DNA of 40,011 nucleotides from Candidatus Liptonbacteria bacterium. Lineage in GTDB: Bacteria > Patescibacteriota > Minisyncoccia > UBA6257 > 2-01-FULL-56-20. A program made the position numbers and the translations under genes. This document shows positions 8,377 to 39,752 of the stretch, one piece after another. Each line of letters begins with the position of its first letter. The first letter of the stretch is position 1. Where the stretch lies: positions 1 to 40,011 of the forward strand of contig VGJV01000008.1 of NCBI GenBank assembly GCA_016867315.1. Direction: 5' to 3'. The notes beneath the pieces were generated by a model, which saw only the letters and a program-made list of their open reading frames with translations, was not told where the DNA came from and searched no databases.

Positions 8377-9151
8377 GATCGTTACTACTCAAATTAAAGA
8401 CAGGATCCACTATCCTGGCCGGCTTGTGGCAGACACGCTGGCCAATATAGGCCGCTGTGGGATTCTTCTTCTGCTCTACTGGTACGTATTCAACCTCCGC
8501 GAAGGCACGATTCAGAACACCACTTTTTTGCTTGTAGCCTGGAGCATGTTTTTCTACTTCGCTTTTTCAGTCCTGAGACTGCGAGACATCGGTAAAACAA
8601 TTATGGAAGATGTGCGCTCCGGTACCGTGGAGATACTCTTGAATAAACCGATCTCATATATTTTGTATCGAGCGTGGTGGCAATTAGGCGGTGGACTCTA
8701 TTCCTTTTTGGTAATTGGAATAATAGGAACAATACTCCTCACTACTCTCATAGGCATTCCTGATACCATGATGAACCTCACCTTCGCCCTTTCCCTCGCC
8801 GCAGTCTTCATACTCGGAATAGTACTTTCTCTCATTCTCTATTCAATCGTAGGAATGTTGGCTTTTTGGATCGAAGAAATAAGACCGATATTCTGGATGG
8901 TGGACAAATCCGTAATGATTTTAGGAGGCTCCTATCTCCCCATCGCCCTATTCCCGGACATTATGTATAAACTCGCCATATGGAGTCCTTTTGGAGCTTC
9001 GCAATTCGTTACTCATACGATGTACCCCTCCTGGACTCGTGAGTGGTATAGCTTTGTAGGAATTCAGCTTTTTTGGATCGCAATACTCGGAATGTTTACA
9101 TATTTCTTGTTTCAAAAAGCCAAACAAAAATTATCCGTAAATGGAGGATAA
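8351..9151 (+). CDS. ABC-2 family permease
   Basis: Polytopic membrane protein overlapping the ATPase gene; second permease follows. Confidence 0.85.
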   Translation: MKELRLANKIVTTQIKDRIHYPGRLVADTLANIGRCGILLLLYWYVFNLREGTIQNTTFLLVAWSMFFYFAFSVLRLRDIGKTIMEDVRSGTVEILLNKPISYILYRAWWQLGGGLYSFLVIGIIGTILLTTLIGIPDTMMNLTFALSLAAVFILGIVLSLILYSIVGMLAFWIEEIRPIFWMVDKSVMILGGSYLPIALFPDIMYKLAIWSPFGASQFVTHTMYPSWTREWYSFVGIQLFWIAILGMFTYFLFQKAKQKLSVNGG

Positions 9152-10925: not shown

Positions 10926-10988
10926 GCCTTCAATATACTCAGGAATATATGAGTGCCCGGTGAATACAAGAAAGAAAAATATAAACTT

Positions 10989-11044
10989 ATCCGGCTTATT
11001 TCTTCCAACCGTAAATCTACAGGGAGGAAGAAATGAGCCCGGAT
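10989..11044. repeat. Conserved-loop hairpin element, copy 1 (3' side of lexA)
   Basis: atccggcttatttcttcc-aaccgtaaatctacaggga-ggaagaaatgagcccggat; stem pairs apart from one bulge and a G-U. Confidence 0.7.
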
Positions 11045-11056
11045 AATATTAAAGCA

Positions 11057-11767
11057 TTACTCGAAACGGTACTCCATCCGCACTTCCTCCGGAGATTCCA
11101 CGAGCGGCACAATCTCGATTTCTCCGCTCTTCGCTTGCATGCGAATCACATCGATCACTTTCCCAAAAATACGGAAATTCTTGCTCACAATAATAGGCTT
11201 ATATTGCGGGTCAGAAGATACCGGAGAGAGAATTACCGCATTATTCGCGAGCTGCAGTTTTTTGATAACCGCAAAGCTGTCGAGAATAGCGACCACCAAA
11301 TCTCCTTCTTCGGCAGCCTCTGTCACTTCTACGAGTACATAATCTCCTTCCTTTATTCCCGCATCGAGCATCGAGTCTCCGATTGCCCGGACACACACCA
11401 CGTTATCCAGCTTTTTTCCTTGGAGTAGTTCTGTCGCCACACACACATAATCTCCGAAATTCCTCTGCGCAAAAACACTTACATGATCACACCCCACTGA
11501 AGCGATCACCGGAATCTGCACCGTCATGGGCTCATCCTGCCTCGGAGCTACCAGTCGAATTCCCCGCCGCGCATATCGCTGCCGTTCGATCAATCCCTTG
11601 CGCTGCAATGCTTCTAAATATTGAGTTACCGCCCGGGGAGAAGAAAATTTCATAAGCCGCACAAGCTCTGCCACAGTAGGAGATTCTCCTTTCTTAACCA
11701 TAAGCTTTTGGAGAGACTCATAAAACCTCGCCTGCTTCGGAGTAAGCTGGATAAGTTTGCGTTTCAT
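11057..11767 (-). CDS. lexA: LexA-like transcriptional repressor
   Basis: wHTH MKRKLIQLTPKQARFYESLQKLMVKKGESPTVAELVRLMKFSSPRAVTQYLEALQRKGLI; Ser/Lys peptidase motifs GDSMLDAGIKEGDYVLV and VVAILDSFAVIKKL. Confidence 0.9.
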   Translation of the reverse strand: MKRKLIQLTPKQARFYESLQKLMVKKGESPTVAELVRLMKFSSPRAVTQYLEALQRKGLIERQRYARRGIRLVAPRQDEPMTVQIPVIASVGCDHVSVFAQRNFGDYVCVATELLQGKKLDNVVCVRAIGDSMLDAGIKEGDYVLVEVTEAAEEGDLVVAILDSFAVIKKLQLANNAVILSPVSSDPQYKPIIVSKNFRIFGKVIDVIRMQAKSGEIEIVPLVESPEEVRMEYRFE

Positions 11768-11843
11768 AAGAATATTATAAATAAAAGAGTGGGATATATA
11801 CAATATATATTTATCCACACCTCTCCCATTCGTAACTACCCGC

Positions 11844-11898
11844 ATCCGATTCGTCCTTTCTGACCGTAAATCCGCAGGGAGGAAAGGATGAATCGGAT
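11844..11898. repeat. Conserved-loop hairpin element, copy 2 (5' side of lexA)
   Basis: atccgattcgtcctttc-tgaccgtaaatccgcagggag-gaaaggatgaatcggat; 17-bp stem with one G-U. Confidence 0.7.
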
Positions 11899-11906
11899 AG
11901 TAAGCC

Positions 11907-12197
11907 TTATGCCCGCTCCGCCACTACCAGCGCCCGCGGGCATCCGTGTTCGCCAAGAGCGGCAGCGAAGAAATCCTCCGAGATGTCATCAACCGCGAAG
12001 TCGCCGTCTCGGTTCTGTTTCAGAGCGATCGGATTTCCGTATTGTGCGTGAATTTTGGGAAATTGTTTCGCGAACCAAGCGTTTGGCGAGAGGAATTTCG
12101 GTTTGTGCGGCTCAGGACCCGTGATTGGTAGATCCACTGCCTCGCCACGACCAGTTCCATTCCCGCTGAGATTCTTAATCGATGTTCGTGTTTTCAT
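11907..12197 (-). CDS. Hypothetical protein
   Basis: 96-aa ORF with balanced composition; no clear RBS; no family recognised. Confidence 0.35.
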   Translation of the reverse strand: MKTRTSIKNLSGNGTGRGEAVDLPITGPEPHKPKFLSPNAWFAKQFPKIHAQYGNPIALKQNRDGDFAVDDISEDFFAAALGEHGCPRALVVAERA

Positions 12198-30154: not shown

Positions 30155-30231
30155 ATTTCTAAGTTCTAATTCCTAATTTCTAAATGTTTGGTACATTGGA
30201 GTTTAGTTAGAAATTAGATATTAGAAATTAA
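30155..30231. repeat. Two oppositely oriented 7-bp-period arrays in murA-glyS intergenic region
   Basis: (atttcta agttcta attccta atttcta, 30155-30182) and (tagttag aaattag atattag aaattaa, 30204-30231). Confidence 0.7.
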
Positions 30232-38983: not shown

Positions 38984-39017
38984 TGTCATAAAGTTGACGA
39001 TCGTCAACTTTATGACA
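38984..39017. promoter_or_regulatory. Perfect 34-bp palindrome upstream of PaaX/Cas2-like gene, putative operator
   Basis: tgtcataaagttgacgatcgtcaactttatgaca is its own reverse complement. Confidence 0.8.
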
Positions 39018-39622: not shown

Positions 39623-39625
39623 AAT

Positions 39626-39659
39626 TGTCATAAAGTTGACGATCGTCAAATTTATGACA
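39626..39659. promoter_or_regulatory. Second copy of the 34-bp palindrome (one mismatched pair)
   Basis: tgtcataaagttgacgatcgtcaaatttatgaca, immediately after the gene. Confidence 0.8.
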
Positions 39660-39752
39660 AAAACTCTCTTATTTCCGAGATACGAACTCCCGAAACAAGG
39701 TTTTAATGTGCGCAGGGAGGATTCCGTCGCTTCGCTCCTAGAACCCTACGCC

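Follow-up and report, generated by a model that had tools for sequence, protein, structure and literature searches.

Two hairpins beside lexA in a Candidatus Liptonbacteria genome probably belong to a low-copy, replication-polar, REP-like palindromic repeat with a conserved tip

The lexA locus and the copies of the hairpin

The window, that is the whole stretch of 40,011 nucleotides that was analysed, carries on its minus strand the lexA gene (11057-11767), whose product contains S24 peptidase and LexA DNA-binding domains, and an ORF of 96 amino acids and of unknown family (11907-12197) which is listed tentatively. Both are neighbours of two hairpins that are read on the plus strand, and lexA itself lies outside the element. 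The first hairpin (lexA3, 10988-11045) is located 3' of lexA, about 12 nt past its stop codon, and the second (lexA5, 11842-11901) lies upstream of the lexA promoter, about 8 nt past the stop codon of the 96-aa ORF, which adjoins it. Both share a tip of 27 nt, TTCCAACCGTAAATCTACAGGGAGGAA at 11003-11029 in the first copy and TTCTGACCGTAAATCCGCAGGGAGGAA at 11858-11884 in the second, and within this tip the sequence ACCGTAAATCYRCAGGGAGG is identical in the two hairpins (11008-11027 and 11863-11882). The two hairpins and their common centre, first noticed in a sequence-only reading of this DNA, were thus both located, the centre being exact in each. No third match to ACCGTAAATCYRCAGGGAGG with three or fewer mismatches was found in the 40-kb window, nor was any found in 100 shuffles. 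When folded as RNA the window hairpins gave -32.9 and -34.5 kcal/mol, corresponding to z values of -8.0 and -6.8 relative to shuffled sequences.

Analysis of the host genome (G000; 878,862 bases in 14 contigs, 99.5% complete) revealed seven copies in total: besides the window pair there are four close copies and a single divergent one. With the window pair the close copies number six, each matching the centre ACCGTAAATCYRCAGGGAGG with two mismatches or fewer, and the seventh (C1:161323-161386) was recovered by a covariance model search with 45.6 bits. The sequence-only reading had staked its proposal of a hairpin family or small mobile repeat on the existence of further copies with complementary arms, and such copies were indeed found. 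It had also described a GGGAGG followed by a well-spaced ATG; this combination is present in both window copies but is absent from the other four close copies.

The tip common to the copies is TTCYRACCGTAAATCYRCAGGGAGGAA or a near variant of it. In the six close copies the near-invariant segment is TTCYRACCRTAAATCYRCAGRGAGGAA, below which the arms diverge. From its base upward the tip, TTCC-GA-CC-GTAAATCCGCA-GG-GA-GGAA, has a stem of 4 bp, internal loops of two bases and a CC/GG pair, and it ends in a loop of 11 nt. The seventh copy has CCCGTAAGCCTGCAGGGA within arms of about 20 bp, and this copy and the one found in a related genome (G023, see below) retain TTCY/RGAA around a CCGTAA-YCTGCAGG centre. 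Tandem G-A pairs were considered as a conserved RNA motif and rejected, since the positions concerned are paired in the G023 copy and partly also in the copy at the tra-like gene.

All seven copies in the host genome are intergenic and most of them begin within 15 nt past a stop codon. The one at yvcK lies between divergent genes; the other six are 3' of gyrA, gatA, hisS, lexA, the 96-aa ORF and a tra-like gene.

Searches among 38 genomes of the family indicated that G023 carries the only other clear copy, located 3' of tsaD (R1 4.8e-8, R2 1.5e-11). A possible but weak candidate lies inside an ORF in G011, and another possible weak candidate, from a genome of another family (G062), is a perfect terminator-like hairpin flanked by runs of A and of T. 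When 244 genomes of the order and 384 genomes of the class were searched with the core pattern and with models, no further clear copies above chance emerged, the remaining candidates looking like chance matches or other hairpins. Scanning 85,000 species genomes for the exact pattern gave eight matches, none of them with arms, and all were attributed to chance. No match was obtained in scans of IMG/VR or in BLAST searches of plasmids and phages, no Rfam family scored above its gathering threshold, and none of the literature searched describes such repeats in CPR.

Replication polarity and comparison with known repeats

Around every copy in the host genome GC skew was measured over 20 kb, or over 40 kb in the case of the window. 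The skew of the motif strand was negative in all six regions, which together hold the seven copies, with values from -0.054 to -0.118, and the genes in these regions run both ways. On contig 1 the sign of the skew flips at about 154-156 kb, which is the position of dnaN (153,806-154,915) and dnaA (155,051-156,409), both identified from their translations and not by profile search. Three copies lie to the right of this flip and all are on the minus strand; since dnaA and dnaN coincide with the flip, these three are lagging-strand copies with respect to a real origin. Judged by GC skew and by the origin at dnaA/dnaN, the motif is on the lagging strand in seven of seven copies (two-sided p 0.016), or in six of six regions when the lexA pair is counted once (p 0.03), few sites standing behind either figure. 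The strong copy in G023 showed the same polarity as the host copies. As for the weak candidates, the skew was near zero around the one in G011 and opposite around the one in G062.

The hairpins are best explained, with fair probability, as copies of a low-copy, dispersed, replication-polar, REP-like palindromic DNA repeat and not as a lexA switch. What is new about this repeat is that its conserved part is the tip rather than the foot. The inherited part would be the tip, and the arms below it may drift or be rebuilt from local DNA, remaining self-complementary. Copies would settle between genes, mostly no more than 15 nt past a stop codon and always with the motif on the lagging strand. Spread may occur via folded single-stranded DNA at replication forks, as in IS200/IS605 elements and REPs, through a mobilising enzyme that would now be absent from the genome or unrecognised in it. 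The arms could be kept paired by a need for the folded form, by template switching that repairs imperfect palindromes, or by both, and any effect on neighbouring genes would be a generic one, a hairpin at mRNA ends as for REPs. A folding DNA element tied to the replication fork would explain at once the dispersal, the intergenic position, the mixed transcription sense and the polarity of the copies. A palindromic repeat that is polar to replication, with a constant tip and with arms that vary but stay self-complementary, is thus described in a reduced genome, probably Patescibacteria-like by its size and gene content, in which no transposase for it is visible.

Comparison with REPs showed that the hairpins are likewise short imperfect palindromes, dispersed, extragenic and mostly 3' of coding regions, with mismatches inside the stem. 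They differ from REPs in their loop, which is conserved and 11 nt long where that of REPs has 2-5 nt, in their arms, which are not conserved, and in their number, the seven copies of the model search being far from the high copy number that characterises REPs; REP copies often exceed 100. The tetranucleotide tag at the 5' foot of REPs (GTAG/GTGG or CGTC) is absent from the flanks of the hairpins. No RAYT/Y1 transposase (PF01797) was detected in the 14 contigs of the host genome or in G023, while the control genomes were positive, so that the mobilising enzyme stays putative. Because foot tag, high copy number and RAYT are all missing, we place the hairpins among REP-like dispersed palindromes, outside the GTAG and CGTC super-families. 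CGTC REPs are likewise without a dedicated transposase (PMC3733652).

The transposases of IS200/IS605 elements work on the template of the lagging strand and recognise loops and irregularities of the stem (PMC6006769, PMC8266576). These elements and their miniature derivatives resemble the hairpins in the folded single-stranded form and in the coupling to the lagging strand, but here neither a transposase nor a pair of left and right ends nor a target tetranucleotide was found. No common flanking target motif was seen by eye in the seven copies, whose element boundaries are uncertain, and no attC-type core site shared by the outer arms was seen by eye either.

Covariation of the arms and competing explanations

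Covariation was counted in an alignment of the six close copies comprising 20 pairs, with shuffled and slid alignments as controls. Thirteen of the 20 pairs are altered on both sides, compared with 6.1 in the shuffles, none of which (0/500) reached 13. The covariation score was 0.573, against 0.246 in shuffles and 0.20-0.21 when the alignment was slid by one, and 88% of the cells in the alignment are paired. The first reading, that the arms differ in sequence and yet each pairs with its own partner, was therefore upheld across the six close copies. The 5' arms of lexA5 and yvcK5 are identical at 12 of 15 aligned positions, which argues for common descent of the copies including at least part of the arms.

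A stem that covaries in this way is expected of a cis-regulatory RNA, but template switching could yield the same; and a consistent position or strand with respect to one gene or class of genes, which such an RNA should also display, was not observed among the seven host copies. The copies occur on mixed strands and at mixed genes, and the cis-regulatory RNA that had been suggested for the lexA hairpins is unlikely. The covariation could also reflect a trans-acting RNA regulon, in which the tip binds an RNA-binding protein or a small RNA, the arms are selected as its support and the seven transcripts are co-regulated. An almost invariant tip above covarying arms is what such a regulon predicts, folding is in nearly all copies more favourable for the motif strand than for its complement, and G-T wobbles outnumber A-C on the motif strand by 9 to 2 (p 0.07), an excess which hints that the motif strand is read as RNA. 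However, the motif is sense to about half of its neighbouring genes and antisense to about half, the would-be target genes differ, genomes of the same genus are without the motif and Rfam gave no match. We consider the regulon unlikely.

The copy in G023 bears on a second alternative, in which the pairing is a mutational product and the arms are built and corrected by inverted copying of local DNA around a tip seed, neither function nor transposition being needed for the arm changes. At the tsaD site a hairpin is missing from four relatives of the same genus (an empty site), and the promoter of the next gene, TTGAC-N-ATATAAG..ATGCTAATAT, is common to G023 and these four. In G023 this promoter (TTGAC...ATATAAGCATATGCTAATAT), which lies downstream and is conserved, is overlapped by the outer right arm, TTGACGGAATATAT, of which the left arm is an inverted copy. 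Since the outer arm overlaps a native promoter and the hairpin is absent in the relatives, at least the outer arm at this one locus is host sequence copied in inverted orientation, and template switching thereby becomes an alternative to selection on RNA. The claim of compensatory changes consequently stands as far as changes on both sides are concerned, but selection for an RNA need not follow from them. Template switching is known to create hairpins with perfect arms by inverted copying of local DNA and to maintain them with multi-base compensatory changes (PMC8794818), and quasipalindrome mutation is reportedly strand-biased (PMC7202029). As a full account it is nevertheless about as improbable as the regulon: it leaves unexplained how the same tip arrived at seven loci, a fixed tip common to several loci not being a product of template switching; the differences between lexA5 and yvcK5 are scattered single changes and not blocks; and the direct evidence comes from one locus. 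Covariation is usually taken as evidence of functional RNA structure, but it can also occur in a dispersed repeat of DNA, and replication may shape the arms of such a repeat.

It is rather doubtful that a mobile tip of about 15-27 nt, a "hairpin cap", is the sole inherited part and that, wherever it lands, it gains new arms as host DNA is copied in fold-back fashion at the replication fork; a mobile element of this sort, if it exists, would be very small, and its arms would be a record of the target.

Ordinary intrinsic terminators that share a loop by chance are very improbable. Most copies do lie directly past stop codons and the distant candidate in G062 is a perfect hairpin between A and T runs, but a T-run is missing after the host hairpins on both strands, apart from a weak one at lexA3 and at yvcK5, the hisS copy occupies a gap of 65 nt between hisS and a co-directional HIT gene, and the common 20-mer is not expected by chance. 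Hardly credible is a lexA-specific element, whether cis-regulatory RNA or protein site, for which the flanking of the gene by two copies in the window had spoken: five of the seven copies are at other genes, the orientation of the seven to transcription is mixed, the lexA orthologues of two genomes of the same genus (G033 and G034, 85% and 82% identical) have different neighbours and no hairpin copy, and the lexA promoter TGTGGATAAnTATATATTGTATATA (about 11793-11819, minus strand) lies outside the hairpin, so that the bracketing of lexA is a coincidence of position.

DnaA boxes and other palindromes

The promoter TGTGGATAAnTATATATTGTATATA is conserved in three genomes of the same genus and contains the only exact DnaA box TTATCCACA of the window (11811). 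Three of the seven copies have an exact box no more than about 50 nt away (L124:15348, L127:11403 and that at lexA), and the sequence is rare, with seven occurrences in 440 kb of the host genome that were sampled. Because the box in the lexA promoter is conserved in G033 and G034, where there is no hairpin, we assign it to the sites rather than to the element; the boxes near the copies probably reflect shared promoter-bearing sites.

In keeping with a REP-like repeat, different palindromic repeats occupy the equivalent positions in G033 (L048:1460-1500, L054:2800-2900 and L063:580-660). These are ATTCCCGCGTACGCGGGAAT between the lexA promoter and the start of the gene, a AATAATGCGAAT repeat between hisS and HIT, and TCATTCCCGCG..GCGGGAATC near tra-like genes; none of the three was found in 440 kb of the host genome.

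Two near-identical palindromes, tgtcataaagttgac-GATC-gtcaa..., are present in the window at 38984-39017 and about 39625-39660. The GAC-GATC-GTC tip recurs with other arms in hairpins of the host genome (L127:14186-14231) and in one 3' of tsaD in G007, and these constitute a second hairpin type with a common tip. The reverse arrangement was observed in the palindromes at L119:8809-8869 and L130:12996-13069 of the host genome, which have common outer arms (ACCCGGTAGT/ACTACCGGGT) and different insides. Low-complexity palindromes such as ATGACTAATGACTTATAAC and TCTAATTTCTAATT were also identified in the window (30160-30230) and at L137:7045-7095, 8501-8589, 11153-11210 and 11594-11657, those of L137 lying 3-8 nt past stop codons.
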